A stretch of DNA of 48,029 bases from assembly GCA_027485815.1 (NCBI GenBank), contig JAIXQE010000027.1, positions 1 to 48,029 on the forward strand, written 5' to 3'. Source of the stretch: Opitutaceae bacterium (GTDB lineage: Bacteria; Verrucomicrobiota; Verrucomicrobiia; Opitutales; Opitutaceae). The notes under the pieces are model-generated. The model was not told where the DNA came from. It saw only the letters and a list, made by a program, of their open reading frames with translations, and made no database searches. Both the position numbers and the translations under genes were made by a program. Shown in pieces: positions 25,147 to 41,340 of the stretch. Position 1 is the first letter of the stretch; each line of letters opens with the position of its first letter.

Positions 25147-26130
25147 TCAGCCGGCGTCCGGCGGGTAGTAGGACTGAAACCAATCGACGAAGCGGCGCAG
25201 GCCCTCCTCGAGCGGCACCCGCGGCGTGAAGCCCACCTCCGCCTGGATGCGCGTGAGGTCGGCGCCGGTCTCGAGCATTTCGCCCGGCTGCGGCGGGAGC
25301 AGTTCGACCTCCGCCTTCCGTCCCAGCAGTTCCTCCAGCATCTGGACGAACAGCAGCGTCTCGACCGGCCGATTGTGGCCGAGGTTGTAGATGCGGTACG
25401 ACGGCCGCGGCGGGACCGCGGGCGGGTACAGCAGAACCTTCACCACGCCGTCGACGATGTCGTCCACGTAGGTGAAGTCCCGCCGGTTGCGCCCGGCGTT
25501 GTAGAGCGGGAGCGGGCGGCCCGCGCGGATCGCGCTGGCGAAGAGCGTGGGCGCCATATCCGGCCGGCCCCAGGGCCCGTAGACCGAGAAGAAGCGTAGC
25601 CCGGTGATGTTCAGGCCGTGATTCAGCGCGTAGCTGTGGGCCATCAGCTCGTTGGCCTTCTTGGTGGCGCCGTAGTACGAGACCGGCTGGTCCGTCACGG
25701 CGTCCTCGCGGAACGGCGCCACCGTGCCCGCGCCGTAGACGCTGCTGCTGGAGGCGAACACCAGGTGGCGCGGCGGCGTGCGGCGGCAGGCCTCGAGCAC
25801 CGTGGCGAACCCCTCGAGGTTGCTCCGCGTGTAGGCCGGCGCGTGCGTCATGCTGTGCCGCACCCCGGGTTGCGCGGCGAGGTGCACCACGTAGTCGGGC
25901 CGCCAATGCGCCACCAGCGCGGGAAATTTCTCCGCATCCGCGCAGTCGGCCTGCACGAACCGGCAGCCCTCCACGCCGGCGAGGCGCTCCACCCGCGCCC
26001 GCTTCAGCGCCGGATCGTAGTAGGCGTCGAGCGAGTCGACGCCCAGGACCTCGCACCGGCCGGTCTCCGCCAGGCGGCGGGCGACGTGGTGGCCGATGAA
26101 TCCGGCGGCGCCGGTGACGAGGACCTTCAT
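25147..26130 (-). CDS. UDP-glucuronate 4-epimerase-like NAD-dependent epimerase
   Basis: A 327-residue short-chain dehydrogenase/reductase-fold nucleotide-sugar epimerase. GAAGFIG (7-13) binds NAD. The catalytic Ser lies in FASSSSVYG (126-133), and Y153-G-A-T-K157 is the YxxxK pair. LRFFSVYGPWGRPDMAP is the stretch typical of UDP-glucuronate 4-epimerases (LpsL/GAE type), including the R-P-D-M signature. It converts UDP-glucuronate to UDP-galacturonate for capsule, LPS or exopolysaccharide in the cytoplasm. It is the first gene of the minus-strand unit that runs into DUF486 and the NHLM exporter. It is divergent from the glutaredoxin gene across 159 bp. Confidence 0.88.
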   Translation of the reverse strand: MKVLVTGAAGFIGHHVARRLAETGRCEVLGVDSLDAYYDPALKRARVERLAGVEGCRFVQADCADAEKFPALVAHWRPDYVVHLAAQPGVRHSMTHAPAYTRSNLEGFATVLEACRRTPPRHLVFASSSSVYGAGTVAPFREDAVTDQPVSYYGATKKANELMAHSYALNHGLNITGLRFFSVYGPWGRPDMAPTLFASAIRAGRPLPLYNAGRNRRDFTYVDDIVDGVVKVLLYPPAVPPRPSYRIYNLGHNRPVETLLFVQMLEELLGRKAEVELLPPQPGEMLETGADLTRIQAEVGFTPRVPLEEGLRRFVDWFQSYYPPDAG

Positions 26131-26211
26131 CGCGCGGGTGATAGGCTCCGGCGCGCAAAACGCCAGCCGGGTTTTGGGCGTCCGCGCGGCCGCCGCGGGA
26201 TTTTGGGAAAG

Positions 26212-26255
26212 TTTTCGAAAAGGGCGCTTGATCGCCGGAAGCGCGGCCGTTTACT
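26212..26255 (+). promoter_or_regulatory. Promoter candidate for the glutaredoxin-glt unit, with a palindrome
   Basis: In the 159-bp gap between the divergent epimerase and glutaredoxin genes, TTGATC (26228-26233), a 16-bp spacer and TTTACT (26250-26255) resemble a sigma-70 -35/-10 pair, 34 bp before the glutaredoxin ATG. A perfect 10-bp palindrome TTTTCGAAAA (26212-26221) lies just upstream and stands out in this GC-rich sequence. The promoter match is moderate (4 of 6 bases in each hexamer). Confidence 0.35.
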
Positions 26256-26289
26256 GCGGGGCGATTTTGTTTTCCCACCCGTTCACCGC

Positions 26290-26625
26290 ATGACGATCAA
26301 AGCCTACCTGAAGCCTCACTGCGGCTGGTCCAACGGTGTCCGCGCCATCCTGCGGAAACACAGCCTGCCCTTCGAGGACATCGACATCATTAACCACCGC
26401 GAGAACTACGCGGAAATGGTGCAGAAGTCCGGCCAGCCGCTCTCCCCCTGCGTGGAGATCGACGGCGTGATGCTCGCCGACGTCTCCGGCGAAGAGGTGG
26501 AGAATTACCTGCTCAGCAACGATCTCGTGAAACCGACGGACGTCCCCACGGACGTCCCGACGAACGCGGGTTGCTCCGACGCGGAGCACGCCAAAATGGC
26601 CACCAAAACGATCCGCTTCTTCTAA
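26290..26625 (+). CDS. Glutaredoxin-fold protein with a CGWS active site
   Basis: A 111-residue cytoplasmic glutaredoxin-family protein. The active site is C11-G-W-S14, a monothiol-type C-x-x-S motif close to the CGFS of iron-sulfur-cluster-carrying glutaredoxins and unlike the dithiol CPYC. The fold pattern is complete: beta1 IKAYLKPH, the helix NGVRAILRKH, FEDIDI, a cis-Pro in SPCVEIDG, and the late glycine region ADVSGEEVENYLL. The C-terminal extension has a DVPT repeat and another Cys (GCSDAEHAKM). It is directly upstream of gltB, whose product and its GltD partner contain Fe-S clusters. A role in cluster delivery or redox control is inference. The ATG at 26290 is the natural start; the reading frame extends far upstream only as an antisense shadow. 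Confidence 0.88.
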   Translation: MTIKAYLKPHCGWSNGVRAILRKHSLPFEDIDIINHRENYAEMVQKSGQPLSPCVEIDGVMLADVSGEEVENYLLSNDLVKPTDVPTDVPTNAGCSDAEHAKMATKTIRFF

Positions 26626-26662
26626 TTCTTCTGCGAGAGCTCTGCGCAATTAATACTTCCCC

Positions 26663-26700
26663 GGGCCGCTCTCGCCTCCGCCGAGACCGGCCCTTTTTTT
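26663..26700 (+). terminator. Intrinsic terminator/attenuator in the gltB leader
   Basis: GGGCCGCTCTCG (26663-26674) pairs with CGAGACCGGCCC (26682-26693) in 11 of 12 positions around a 7-nt loop, followed by seven T (26694-26700). It is 37 bp after the glutaredoxin stop and 46 bp before the gltB ATG, leaving little room for a separate gltB promoter. An upstream segment GCGAGAGC (26633-26640) is perfectly complementary to GCTCTCGC (26668-26675) in the left arm and first loop base. It could therefore form an alternative antiterminator, so attenuation of gltBD is plausible. Confidence 0.75.
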
Positions 26701-26746
26701 GCTTCAGACGCCTCCAGCTTCCGCCTCCACCTCCTTTTCCGCCGCA

Positions 26747-29700
26747 ATGAATCCCGCTCCCGCCACGCCTCCGCCCGCCCCCGCCAGCGCCGCCCCGCGC
26801 CCCGCTCCCGGCCTCCCGGCGAAACAGGGCCTCTACGACCCGGCCTTCGAGCACGACGCCTGCGGCGTGGGCTTCATCGCCGACCTCCACGGCCGCAAGT
26901 CCCACCAGATGGTGGCCAACGGCCTCCAGATCCTCCGTAACCTCGACCACCGCGGCGCCAGCGGCGCCGAAATCAACACCGGCGACGGCGCGGGCATCCT
27001 CATCCAGATGCCGCACCGCTTCCTCGTCGAGGCCTGCGAGGCCGCGCGCATCACGCTCCCGGCCCCCGGCCACTACGGCACCGGACTCTTCTTCCTCCCC
27101 CGCAACCCCGCGATGCGCCGCAAGATCGAGGAACGCTTCGAGCAGGTCGTCCGCGCCGAAGGCCTCGAATTCCTCGGCTGGCGCACGGTCAAGACCGACA
27201 ACTCGATGCTCGGCGACACCGCGAAGTCCGTCGAACCCTTCATGCGGCAGGCCTTCATCGGCCGCGGCCCCGACGTCCGCGACGAGGCTCACTTTGAGCG
27301 CAAGCTTTACGTTGTTCGCAAGCGGGGCTACGCCGAGATCCGCACCTCCACCCTCCCCGGCGCCGAGTACTGGTACGTTGCCAGCCTCTCCCACAAGACG
27401 CTCGTCTACAAGGGGATGCTGACGACCGACCAGGTGGATCAATACTTCCCCGAGCTGAAGGACCCGCGGATGGAGTCCGCCCTCGCGCTCGTCCATTCCC
27501 GCTTCTCCACCAACACGTTCCCCAGCTGGGAGCGCGCGCACCCGTACCGGTACCTCGCCCACAACGGCGAAATCAATACCTTGCGCGGCAACATGAACTG
27601 GATGCACGCCCGCCAGGCGCTCTTCGCCAGCGAGCTGTTCGGCGAGGACATCCGGAAGATCCTGCCCATCATCAACCCCAACGGGTCCGACTCGGCGATG
27701 TTCGACAACACGCTCGAGCTGCTGGTCCTCGCCGGCCGCCCCCTCGCGCACGCGATGATGATGATGATCCCCGAGCCGTGGTCCTACCACGAGTCGATGG
27801 ACGACGAGCGCCGCGCCTTCTACCAGTTCCACTCCTGCCTGATGGAGCCGTGGGACGGCCCCGCCTCGGTCGCCTTCACCGACGGCCGCCAGATCGGCGC
27901 CGTCCTCGACCGCAACGGCCTCCGCCCCTCCCGGTTCTACGTCACCAAGGACGGCCGCGTCATCATGGCCTCCGAGGCCGGCGTGCTCGACATCCCGCCC
28001 GAACAGGTGGTCCGCAAGGGCCGCCTCCAGCCCGGCCGGATGTTCCTCGTCGATACCGCCGAGGGGCGCATCATCGAGGACGAGGAGATCAAGCGGGAGA
28101 TCTGCCGCGCCCACCCGTACCGCGAGTGGCTCAACCAGCATCTGGTCCACCTCAGCGACCTGCCCGCCGCCCCCAAGGTCGAGCCGCCCGACCACGACAC
28201 GCTGCTCCAGCGTCAGATCGCCTTCGGCTACACCTTTGAGGACGAGCGCATCCTCCTCCTGCCGATGGCCAAGGACGGGGTGGAGGCGATCGGCTCGATG
28301 GGCAACGACGCCGCTCTGGCGGTGCTCTCCAACAAGCCGCGGCTGCTCTACGATTATTTCAAGCAGCTGTTCGCCCAGGTCACCAACCCGCCGATCGACT
28401 CCATCCGCGAGGAGATCGTCACCTCCGCCGAGACCCGCCTCGGTTCCGAGGGCAACCTGCTCCAGCCCGAGGCGAGCGCCTGCCGCCGCGTCGAACTGAA
28501 GTGGCCCGTGCTCACCAACGAGGAGTTCGGCAAGATCCGCCGCACCCACCTCCCGGGCCTCAAGACCGGCGTGCTGCCGATCCTCTTCCGCGTCACCCGC
28601 GGGGAAAAGGGCCTCGCCAAGTCGATGGAGGAGCTTTCCATCATGGCCCGCCGGATGATCGAGGAGGAGGAGGTCAACGTCCTCATCCTCAGCGACCGCG
28701 GGGTGACGAAGGACTTCGCGCCCATCCCCGCGCTGCTCGCGGTGGCCGGGCTCCATCATTACCTGATCCGCGAGGGCCTGCGCACGCGCGTGTCGCTGGT
28801 CCTCGAGACCGGCGAGGCCCGCGAGGTGCACCACTTCGCCCTGCTCATCGGCTACGGCTGCAGCGCGGTGAACCCGTACGTCGCCTTCGAGACGATCGAC
28901 GACATGATCCGCGAGGGCCACCTCTCCGGCATCGACCACGCCAAGGCCTGCGCGAACTTCGTCAAGGCCGCCTCCAAGGGCGTGGTGAAGGTGATGTCCA
29001 AGATGGGCATCTCCGCGATCCAGAGCTACCGCGGCGCCCAGGTGTTCGAGGCCCTCGGCCTCCGCCAGGACGTCATCGACCACTACTTCACCTGGACCCC
29101 GTCCCGCGTCGGCGGGATCGGGCTCGACGTGATCGCCCAGGAGGTGCTCCTGCGCCATCGCGCCGCCTACCCGGAGCGGGCGGTCGATGTCCGCGCCCTT
29201 GCCACCGGCGGACTTTACCAGTGGCGCGCCACCGGCGAGGCCCACCTGTTCACGCCCGAGTCGGTGCACGCCCTGCAGAAGGCGGTGCGTTCCAACAGCC
29301 TGCCGGCCTACCAGGCCTACGCGCGGCTGATCAACGACCAGGGCCGGGCCCATTGCACGCTCCGCAGCCTGCTCGAGTTCAAGGATGCGCCCAACGCGAT
29401 CCCGCTCGAGGAGGTGGAGTCCGCCGAGCGCATCATGCGCCGCTTCAAGACCGGCGCGATGTCCTACGGCTCGATCTCGCAGGAGGCCCACGAGACGCTC
29501 GCGATCGCGATGAACCGCATCGGCGGCAAATCCAACACCGGTGAGGGCGGCGAGGATCCGGCTCGCTTCACCTGGACCAACGAGCAGGGCGATTCGAAGA
29601 ACTCCGCCATCAAGCAGGTCGCCTCCGGCCGCTTCGGCGTCTCCATCGAGTACCTCGTCAACGCCCGCGAGATTCAGATCAAGATGGCCCAGGGTGCGAA

Positions 29701-31402
29701 GCCCGGCGAGGGCGGCCAGTTGCCCGGCACCAAGGTCTACCCCTGGGTCGCCAAGACCCGTGGCACGACCGCCGGCGTCGGCCTCATCTCGCCGCCGCCC
29801 CACCACGACATCTACTCCATCGAGGACCTTGCCGAGCTGATCCACGACCTCAAGAACGCCAACAAGGAGGCCCGCATCAGCGTGAAGCTGGTCTCCGAGA
29901 TCGGCGTCGGCACGGTCGCCGCCGGCGTCGCCAAGGCCCACGCCGACGTCGTCCTTATCTCGGGCTACGACGGCGGCACGGGCGCCTCGCCCCAGACCTC
30001 GCTCCAGCACGCCGGCCTGCCGTGGGAACTCGGCCTCGCCGAGGCCCACCAGACCCTCGTGCTGAACAACCTGCGCTCCCGCATCGCGGTCGAGACCGAC
30101 GGCCAGCTCAAGACGGGCCGCGACGTCGCCATCGCCGCCCTGCTCGGCGCCGAGGAGTTTGGCTTCGCCACCGCCCCCCTCGTCGCCACGGGGTGCATCA
30201 TGATGCGCGTCTGCCACCTCAACACCTGCCCGGCCGGCGTCGCCACCCAGGATCCGCAGCTCCGCGCCCGCTTCACCGGCAAGCCGGAGCACGTGGTGAA
30301 CTTCATGCGCTTCATCGCCGACGACCTCCGCGCCATCATGGCCCGTCTCGGCTTCCGCTCGATCGAGGAGATGGTCGGCCGCACCGACCGCCTCGAGGCC
30401 CGCCGCGCCGTCGACCACTGGAAGGCCCGCGGTCTCGATTTCTCGAACATCCTCTACCAGCCGGATGCCGGCCCGGAGGTGGGCCGCTTCTGCCAGCAGA
30501 AGCAGGACCACGGCATCGACCGTTCGCTCGACATGACTCGACTCCTCGAGCTCTGCCGCCCCGCCATCGATCGCGGCGAAAAGGTCATCGCCGAACTCCC
30601 CATCCGCAACGTCAACCGCGTCGTCGGCACCATCACCAGCGGCGAGATCACCCGCCGCCACGGCGCCGCCGGCCTCCCGGAGGACACGATCCGCCTGAAG
30701 TTCACCGGCTCCGCCGGCCAGAGCTTCGGCGCCTTCGTCACCCGCGGGATGACCCTCGCCATCGAGGGCGACGCGAACGACTACTTCGGCAAGGGCCTCT
30801 CCGGCGGGAAGCTCATCATCTACCCGCCCGCCCAGGCTCCCTTCCGCGCCGAGGAGAACATGATCATCGGCAACGTCGCCTTCTACGGCGCCAGCGCCGG
30901 TGAGGCCTACATCCGCGGCCTCGCGGGCGAGCGCTTCGCGGTCCGCAACTCCGGCGTCACCGTCGTGGTCGAGGGCGTCGGCGACAACGGCTGCGAGTAC
31001 ATGACCGGCGGCAACGTCGTCGTCCTCGGCCGGGCCGGCCGCAACTTCGGCGCCGGCATGTCCGGCGGCATCGGCTACGTCCTCGACGAGGCCGGTGACT
31101 TCCCGAAGCGCGTGAACCCCCAGATGGTCGGCATCGAGCGCCTGGAGGATCCCCGCGAGATCGCCGCCCTCCGCGCGATGATCCAGAAGCACCTCGATTA
31201 CACGCGCTCCGAGCGCGCCCGGACGGTGCTTGCCGACTGGGCGGCGTACGTCCCGCGCTTCGTCAAGGTGATGCCCAAGGACTACAAGCGGATGCTGGCC
31301 TGCCTGGACCGCGCCCGCGCCCAGGGCCTCACCGGCGACGAGGCCGTGATGGCCGCCTTCGAGGAAAACGCCCGCGACCTCTCCCGCGTCGGCGGCAACT
31401 GA
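26747..31402 (+). CDS. gltB: Glutamate synthase (NADPH) large subunit
   Basis: A 1551-residue GOGAT alpha subunit. It makes glutamate from glutamine and 2-oxoglutarate, completing ammonium assimilation. The class II glutamine amidotransferase domain begins at Cys39 (HDACGVGF), the N-terminal nucleophile, after a 38-residue Pro/Ala-rich propeptide that must be removed. A central domain follows, then the FMN-binding synthase domain ([42 protein letters not shown]). Cys1150, Cys1156 and Cys1161 (C-x5-C-x4-C) hold the 3Fe-4S cluster. The C-terminal GXGXG beta-helix domain ([10 protein letters not shown]-like, [21 protein letters not shown]) completes the protein at normal family length. The ATG at 26747 is preferred to an in-frame TTG at 26699 inside the terminator T-tract. 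It is followed by gltD after 31 bp. Confidence 0.97.
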
Positions 31403-31433
31403 ACGCTCCCTCCACCCCGATCCCTCTCCTCCC

Positions 31434-32918
31434 ATGGGCAAGCCCACCGGATTCATCGAATACCTCCGCGAACTCCCCGTCGACCGCGCTCCCACCGAGC
31501 GCGTGAAGGACTGGAACGAGTTCCACCTCCACCTCGACGACAAGAAGCTGCGTCAGCAGGGCGCGCGCTGCATGGACTGCGGCATCCCGTTCTGCCACTC
31601 CGGCAAGCTGATCAGCGGGATGGCCAGCGGCTGCCCGATCAACAACCTCATCCCCGAGTGGAATGACCTGATCTACCGGGGCCTGTGGCGGGAGGCGCTC
31701 GATCGCCTCCACAAGACGAACAACTTCCCCGAGTTCACCGGCCGCGTTTGCCCCGCGCCCTGCGAGGGCTCCTGCACGCTCGGGATCAACGCCCCGCCGG
31801 TCACGATCAAGAACATCGAGGTGTCGGTCATCGACAAGGGCTGGGACGAGGGCTGGGTCCTGCCGCAGGCCCCCCGCACCCGCACCGGCAAGAAGGTCGC
31901 CGTCATCGGCTCGGGTCCCGCCGGCCTCTCTGCCGCCGCCCAGCTCAACCAGGCCGGCCACACGGTCACCGTCTTCGAGCGCGCCGACCGTCCCGGCGGG
32001 CTCCTGATGTACGGGATCCCCAACATGAAGCTCGACAAGCGCGAGGTGGTGGAGCGCCGCATCCGCCTGATGGAGCAGGAAGGGATCAAGTTCATCTGCA
32101 ACGCGAACGTCGGCGACAACGTCGAGCCGCAGATCTTCCTGAAGGAGTACGACGCCACCGTGATCTGCACCGGCGCCACCCAGCCGCGTGACCTGCCCAT
32201 CGAGGGCCGCCAGCTCCTGGGCGTCCACTTCGCGATGGAGTTCCTCACCGCCAACACCAAGGCGCTCCTCAACGGCGGCACGGACCATTCGCCCATCCAC
32301 GCCCGCGGCAAGGATGTCGTGGTCATCGGCGGCGGCGACACCGGCACGGACTGCGTCGGCACTTCCCTCCGCCACGGCTGCCGCAGCATCACGCAAATCG
32401 AGATCCTCCCGCGGCCGCCGCTCGAGCGGCAGCCCGACAATCCCTGGCCGGAGTGGCCCAAGACCCTCAAGGTCGACTATGGCCAGGAGGAGGCCGCCGC
32501 CCGTTTCGGCGCCGACCCGCGCACTTACCTCACCACGGTGAAGAAGTTCGTCGGGGACGCCCAGGGCCGCCTCAAGGAGCTGGTCACCGTCGAGGTGAAG
32601 TGGGCGAAGAACGACAAGGGCCAGTTCGTCCCCCAGGAGGTTCCGGGCACCGAGCAGACGCGCCCCGCCCAGTTGGTGCTGCTCGCGATGGGCTTCCTCG
32701 GGCCCGAGCAGGCGATCCTCAAGGAGCTCGGCCTCGAGACCGACGCCCGTTCCAACCTCAAGGCGGAGCACGAGAAGTACACGACCAACCTCAAGGGCGT
32801 GTTTGCCGCCGGCGACTGCCGCCGTGGGCAGAGCCTCGTGGTGTGGGCCATCAACGAGGGTCGCGGCGCCGCGCGCGAGTGCGACCGTTACCTGATGGGC
32901 CAGACCGACCTGCCCTGA
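31434..32918 (+). CDS. gltD: Glutamate synthase small subunit
   Basis: A 494-residue GOGAT beta subunit that takes electrons from NADPH through FAD and two 4Fe-4S clusters to the large subunit. The cysteine sets are C46-M-D-C49 with GIPFCHSG and GCPINN, and further on [12 protein letters not shown]. The FAD site [10 protein letters not shown] begins near residue 159, and the NAD(P)H site [10 protein letters not shown] near residue 297. The C-terminal [22 protein letters not shown] block is the usual FAD-contacting end. Length and domain order are those of the family. It lies 31 bp after gltB and is surely in the same operon. The start at 31434 ([15 protein letters not shown]) matches the standard GltD N-terminus. 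Confidence 0.97.
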
Positions 32919-41262: not shown

Positions 41263-41340
41263 GTCCCCATCGTCTAGCCTGGCCTAGGACACCACCCTTT
41301 CACGGTGAGAACCGGGGTTCGAATCCCCGTGGGGACGCCA
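41263..41340 (+). tRNA. tRNA-Glu (anticodon TTC), CCA encoded
   Basis: The acceptor stem GTCCCCA (41263-41269) pairs with TGGGGAC (41330-41336). The D-arm region is GTCTAGCCTGGCCTAGGAC. The anticodon loop CTTTCAC (41297-41303) has TTC at 41299-41301. The T-arm GGGGTTCGAATCCCC is perfect, and GCCA ends the gene. The sequence closely resembles bacterial tRNA-Glu; the outermost anticodon-stem pair looks mismatched (C-A). The acceptor 3' half is duplicated downstream at 41563. Confidence 0.96.

Follow-up and report, generated by a model that had tools for sequence, protein, structure and literature searches.

A probable transcription attenuator between the glutaredoxin and glutamate synthase genes of Opitutaceae

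The grx-gltB-gltD locus

The window, i.e. the whole 48,029-nucleotide stretch of DNA from an Opitutaceae bacterium that was analysed, contains a glutaredoxin gene (grx) followed on the same strand by gltB and gltD, the genes for the two subunits of glutamate synthase (Table 1). The Pfam matches agree with the identity given to these genes in a preliminary description of the locus, and the N-terminus of GltB has a single match in the genome of the window. Between grx and gltB lies a terminator hairpin (-20.3 kcal/mol and z -2.53 for the hairpin region in the window). Its left arm (GGGCCGCTCTCG, 26663-26674) and its right arm, separated by a loop at 26675-26681, pair at 11 of 12 positions with a single C-C mismatch and are followed by a T7 tract that ends 46 nt before the gltB ATG. 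The preliminary description had placed such a terminator, tolerant of a mismatch, 3' of grx, and the coordinates agree to the base. It should be noted that a simple terminator scan disallows internal mismatches, so that this terminator is missing from its output.

Downstream of the grx stop codon, the segment GCGAGAGC (el2) had been described as perfectly complementary to part of the hairpin; it is indeed the exact complement of GCTCTCGC at 26668-26675. The duplex between the post-stop segment and the left arm in the window (L001) scores -19.9, compared with a mean of -8.6 for shuffled sequences, none of 300 reaching it. The 4.08 Mb genome contains a single match to the pattern GGGCCG-N4..30-CGGCCCTTTTT, at the grx-gltB leader; a control pattern read backwards also has one match.

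Upstream of grx, a CTTGAT-type block followed by a TATACC/TTTACC-type block can be recognized by eye at a near-equal distance in most of 40 relatives, and the corresponding blocks of the window are the probable promoter of the unit (Table 1). A consensus scan of 25500-27500 found no sigma-70-type site on either side of the terminator, these blocks included. We infer that grx, gltB and gltD form one unit, with its transcription start before grx and the switch inside it. Elsewhere in the window, an antisense open frame of 1676 aa (26513-31543, minus strand) runs over gltB; it is an effect of high G+C content and not a gene.

Table 1. Features of the grx-gltB-gltD locus (positions in the window)
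Feature	Position	Strand	Basis
Probable promoter of the grx-gltBD unit: TTGATC (26228-26233), 16 nt, TTTACT (26250-26255)	26228-26255	+	Blocks recur by eye in most of 40 relatives
grx, glutaredoxin gene, first in the unit (111 aa)	26290-26625	+	Pfam PF00462, E 4.2e-12
Putative antiterminator 5' segment (el2), GCGAGAGC; pairing may reach about 26645	26633-26640	+	Complementarity, comparative pairing tests
Variable loop of the putative antiterminator	26649-26662	+	Majority identity 0.50 at 26649-26660; no sign of pairing to the left arm
Shared strand: terminator left arm (26663-26674) and putative antiterminator 3' strand (26668-26675)	26663-26675	+	Pairing to either partner better matched than in permutations
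Terminator right arm, CGAGACCGGCCC	26682-26693	+	Fold; majority identity 0.83
Terminator U-tract (T7/U7)	26694-26700	+	Read from the sequence
gltB, glutamate synthase large subunit, putative regulated gene	26747-31402	+	Pfam GATase_2, Glu_syn_central, Glu_synthase, GXGXG
gltD, glutamate synthase small subunit	31434-32918	+	Pfam Fer4_20 and Pyr_redox_2; GltD-type flavin reductase

Survey of grx-gltB loci and distribution of the leader

The glutaredoxin of the window was found in 80 of 95 relatives, and in 232 of the 252 genomes of the family at E<=1e-30; the named records of the public collection with a glutaredoxin match are mostly labelled Opitutaceae or Opitutae. Loci identical around the stop codon were merged, and L031 and L082 were dropped as repeats of the window. 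This gave 164 distinct grx loci, in 141 of which gltB is next on the same strand, although its absence at a locus can reflect a contig end (L120). A grx-gltB terminator was found, by the finder or by inspection, in 132 of the 141 loci, being GGCCG-type in 111 and of another type in 21. The other nine (L044, L053, L061, L063, L066, L069, L177, L208 and L210) have none by the finder; L177 has a GGCCG hairpin but a poor T-tract, and thus falls outside the finder's calls. Three loci (L042, L157 and L212) were entered by hand, and ten GGCCG loci with an extra base were assigned to that group by their terminator sequence.

Five loci with GGCCG-type terminators (L054, L057, L058, L062 and L100) show no el2 pairing against shuffles (p 0.40 to 0.91); L054 lies outside the family by its 'order' label, and the other four are family members. 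They were set aside in the permutation, upper-arm swap, dinucleotide-shuffle, ordinary-terminator and spacing tests and in the scan for a segment 1, leaving 106 GGCCG-type loci as the switch set. The leader of the closest relatives consists, in order, of CGCTGAGAGC..C.CCGCA, a spacer that varies, GGGCCGCTCTCGC, a loop, CGAGACCGGCCC and T7.

The GltB proteins encoded behind this leader are not uniform. At L016, L035, L041, L043, L126, L136, L155, L160-L162, L176-L181 and L185, GltB is about 41-46% identical to the N-terminus of the window's protein, while at most other loci the identity is 63-100%; to judge from these values, a different type of GltB seems to stand behind the same grx and switch in the former loci. 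One assembly (G012) contains two grx-leader-gltB loci (L002 and L032), which may reflect either a duplicated locus or mixing of genomes in the bin.

A model of the leader matched 130 of the 252 family genomes at E<=0.01, a threshold that admits some chance matches. Twelve places fetched from its list comprised two strong and ten weak matches, and each genome has one strong site among the matches listed. In a sample of 288 genomes of the phylum, 12 genomes matched at E<=0.001, all in the window's own family; the model used was built from canonical members, and distant forms could be missed. A weak second site in the window's genome was rejected as a copy of the switch, as it is an ordinary terminator, with the el2 pairs broken, behind a gene that by eye resembles rpmA. 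At L224 (positions 820-886) and the corresponding sites of L226-L229, the end of an rpmA-like gene carries a GGCCGGTTCCGCC...GGAACCGGCC terminator and TTTTTCTTGCC. This terminator is near-constant in five relatives and has no complementary upstream segment, which makes it a natural control: exact conservation of a terminator within a genus is therefore not special by itself.

No Rfam family matches the grx-gltB leader. Up to E 5, the only match in 26400-26800 was Guanidine-III, inside grx and attributable to chance (12.4 bits, the cut-off being 36); the sole match in the window at the gathering threshold is a tRNA (41263-41337, plus strand). A search of the openly accessible literature, which included passages of PMC2965389 and PMC8632094, found no such element. 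In kind, the leader would be a classical terminator/antiterminator attenuator; that search turned up no instance in an intergenic position behind a whole glutaredoxin gene.

Conservation of the alternative pairing

The terminator left arm is the strand for which el2 and the right arm would compete. In an alignment of 30 sequences chosen for the canonical type, this shared strand (26663-26674) has the highest majority identity (0.96), followed by el2 (0.88), the right arm (0.83), the spacer (0.50) and the loop (0.48), and the RNAalifold consensus fold is the antiterminator. Among 83 distinct representatives, the el2-left arm and left arm-right arm pairings each beat permutation (0 of 5000 in both cases), and in 74 of them the terminator hairpin is more stable than the antiterminator. 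Two helices competing for one strand are, as far as comparison of sequences can tell, both maintained.

Evidence that el2 follows the left arm was obtained by swapping partners between loci. When 30 distinct left arms were represented by one locus each, a set that includes the five non-pairing GGCCG loci, matched pairs gave -14.29 kcal/mol vs -11.76 kcal/mol for mismatched ones (0 of 20000 permutations). For the 24 arms without CTCTCG the values were -13.77 and -11.47 kcal/mol (again 0 of 20000), and the 21 other-terminator loci gave no signal (-8.50 vs -8.63; 11981 of 20000). Swaps restricted to the short upper arm gave significant results even when el2 or the arm was reversed (2 and 0 of 20000), so the upper-arm signal partly reflects matching composition. 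Shuffles preserving dinucleotides settle that base order, beyond composition, matters for el2 pairing: against the whole left arm, in 21 arms without CTCTCG, el2 scored -15.91 kcal/mol vs -11.33 for the shuffles (0 of 500), reversed el2 -10.23 kcal/mol, and neither the spacer nor the other-terminator controls were significant. None of these pairing tests models the tree.

Taken singly, 54 of the 106 switch loci pair el2 with the left arm beyond chance (p<0.05) and 52 fall below that threshold; by the same criterion, such pairing is seen in 3 of 62 ordinary terminators (taken from 80 named loci and the window), in none of the 21 other grx-gltB terminators and in none of 12 grx loci without gltB. 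Individual cases of arm and el2 changing together are GCTCG with CGAGC (L052), TCGCGA with TCGCGA (L204), GTCTTCGC with GCGAGAC (L180), GTTCTCGC with GCGAGCAAC (L178) and GCTCTCA with TGAGAGT (L193). The exclusive antiterminator put forward in the preliminary description is thus supported: its pairing is conserved and tracks the changes of the left arm, and neither ordinary terminators nor grx loci lacking gltB show it. The loss of the alternative pairing in relatives, named there as the adverse outcome, was not the general result; the pairing is kept.

Formal counts of covarying pairs give a weaker signal than the shuffles and swaps. The alignment of close relatives has no two-sided change, because the left arm hardly varies; a wider alignment, which is structure-fitted and contains three spurious rows, has three pairs with two-sided changes and eight cells (0 of 500 shuffles for cells). 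El2 was misplaced in distant members when 62 loci were aligned with MAFFT, and that alignment was excluded from the counts.

When the window's RNA was folded stepwise by minimum energy, the antiterminator was present at every length listed between 48 and 66 of 68 nt, and the full-length RNA adopted the terminator. Across loci, the fraction of antiterminator-dominant steps was 0.83 in the switch set vs 0.65 and 0.57 in two controls, in which any upstream pairing counts; stepwise folding was therefore dropped as a general discriminator.

Other partners were also considered, but none was accepted. A fold, and GCTCTAAGC in some relatives, hinted that el2 might pair with sequence beyond the terminator, but 1220 of 5000 permutations reached that pairing; pairing of el2 with the 3' end of grx was weak over the last 60 nt (19 of 5000) and concentrated in no coherent interval. 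Neither the right arm with the region after it nor the end of grx with the left arm gave any signal in permutations. A scan of the 3' end of grx for a segment 1 gave lowest z values of -3.1, in an interval overlapping el2, and -2.5 (-48 to -24).

Promoters and read-through

Only one of the 106 switch loci has a -10-like site (5 of 6 positions of TATAAT) after the terminator, compared with 6.5 (sd 2.3) expected from shuffles. This depletion fits the earlier remark that there is little room for a promoter between terminator and gltB, and it suggests that gltBD is probably reached by read-through in these loci. A promoter between el2 and the terminator was also considered and discarded, as relatives have not retained the A/T-rich TTAATAC found in the window.

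Sites of the -10-like type were found in 5 of the 15 family loci that lack the switch, with 2.7 expected, and CTAATA was seen by eye in 7. The loci with CTAATA shortly after an ordinary terminator are L100, L105, L114, L119, L123, L150 and L159, where it is a candidate -10 or operator of an independent gltB promoter. From this pattern, gltB seems to have its own promoter in the genera lacking the switch.

Proposed mechanism and alternative explanations

On the comparative evidence described above, the grx-gltB leader is probably a cis-acting transcription attenuator inside the grx-gltB-gltD unit. After the grx stop codon the RNA would hold el2, the left arm and the right arm, with el2 and the right arm competing for the left arm. 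When el2 is paired with the left arm, no terminator could form and RNA polymerase would continue into gltBD; when el2 is unavailable, the two arms would pair and transcription would stop at 26694-26700. We infer that termination and read-through both occur, and that gltBD depends on the latter.

As for the trigger, it is quite conceivable, if somewhat short of likely, that the fold is chosen by the ribosome finishing grx. A ribosome at the grx stop codon would cover the start of el2 and favour the terminator, and slow or uncoupled translation of grx, as under amino-acid or nitrogen shortage, would leave el2 free and raise gltBD. The complete grx gene would then act as the equivalent of a leader peptide. 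That the glutaredoxin gene is the leader ORF of the attenuator, with the terminating ribosome picking the fold and glutamate synthase transcription reporting on grx translation, is a tentative proposal. The ribosome trigger is favoured by the fact that el2 begins to pair 0-9 nt after the stop codon in all 83 representatives (leaders of 23-45 nt), at least half of the el2 core lying within 10 nt of it in 64 of them; the footprint of a ribosome extends about 10 nt past the stop codon. Three observations count against it. Masking the first 10 nt after the stop has a partial effect, lowering the antiterminator-dominant steps from 0.83 to 0.55 on average and from 0.94 to 0.88 in the window, where the el2 core starts 7 nt after the stop and a ribosome would cover only part of it. 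The spacing to the stop codon is no tighter than leader length explains (correlations with leader length of 0.62 and 0.75), and no segment 1 was found.

The absence of a segment 1, together with that of any conserved loop, aptamer or control-codon run (spacer identity 0.50, no Rfam match), could also be read as pointing to a fixed read-through device, in which every transcript would initially fold into the antiterminator, giving a constant grx:gltBD ratio with no sensing; the stepwise folds need no external factor. A weaker terminator, however, would suffice for that purpose, and exclusive helices kept matched through change, with el2 by the stop codon in every representative, suggest something more, so that a fixed ratio appears rather unlikely.

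Nitrogen genes are often under controls of the RNA-binding or effector type, and the conservation of el2 and its CCGC tail among the closest relatives goes further than pairing alone would require, as might be expected if an RNA-binding protein, a small molecule or a trans-acting RNA stabilized one of the folds, in the manner of BglG-type antiterminators or short riboswitches. Nevertheless, the stop codon and the terminator lie about 37 nt apart in the window and as little as 23 nt apart in relatives, so that an aptamer would have little space, and el2 changes in sequence with its partner across genera. No regulon was seen either, given the one strong site per genome among the matches listed and the broken weak second site. 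Control by such an effector is therefore judged unlikely.

It is very unlikely that the hairpin is simply the terminator of grx, with a gltB promoter overlapping or following it and the complementarity incidental. The same terminator does occur behind grx where gltB is not next (e.g. L048, L049, L051 and L186-L190), and the -10-like and CTAATA sites of the 15 loci without the switch would suit such an arrangement; but the pairing is strong at the switch loci and absent from ordinary terminators, -10-like sites are depleted, and the window offers only the 46 nt between U-tract and ATG. Finally, a small RNA derived from the grx 3' UTR, with the conserved CTCTCGC as its seed, would explain why that motif persists in the left arm at loci whose right arm pairs with it incompletely (e.g. 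L022 and L026), but appears most improbable, as el2 tracks the left arm in cis, and a trans-acting seed predicts none of that.

Comparison with known systems

RNA-based gene control in Verrucomicrobia is little known, and a conserved switch before gltBD would be a control point for the main nitrogen-assimilation route in these bacteria. A cis-regulatory RNA candidate for the same enzyme has been described elsewhere: according to PMC8632094, the gltD (SRC-18-1) motif is a riboswitch candidate of Selenomonadales and Veillonellales that follows a promoter, immediately precedes gltD and is proposed to act by hiding the ribosome-binding site, whereas the grx-gltB device is found in Opitutaceae, follows grx and is terminator-based. 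The glutamine riboswitches (glnA and Downstream-peptide motifs) also serve nitrogen-assimilation genes, but the grx-gltB leader has no Rfam match and shows no conserved aptamer domain, and its spacer is variable. The RAT antiterminator of BglG/LicT systems is, like the one proposed here, a stem overlapping the 5' half of a terminator; in the grx-gltB leader, however, el2 varies with the left arm across genera.

In the frdD-ampC attenuator of Escherichia coli, the terminator of the upstream gene also controls the next gene, as it would at grx-gltB. Reportedly, ampC has its own promoter overlapping frdD, and its leader includes a ribosome-binding step. At grx-gltB, in contrast, there is a separate, conserved antiterminator strand, and no promoter was seen downstream.

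The closest resemblance in logic is to the ribosome-mediated attenuators of the trp and his operons, where one strand is likewise common to terminator and antiterminator, and where a ribosome at the stop codon by segment 2 favours the terminator, as proposed here for grx. The grx stop codon lies within reach of a terminating ribosome from the corresponding segment, if the footprint given above is taken. The grx-gltB device differs in being intercistronic and in having no short leader peptide, no control codons and no segment 1 that could be found. Should the ribosome trigger prove correct, the place of the leader peptide can be taken by an ordinary upstream gene, and attenuators may also lie between the genes of an operon, beyond 5' ends. 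Glutaredoxin is possibly an iron-sulphur carrier, and trp-like logic without a leader peptide would then couple it to the iron-sulphur enzyme glutamate synthase across a bacterial family.
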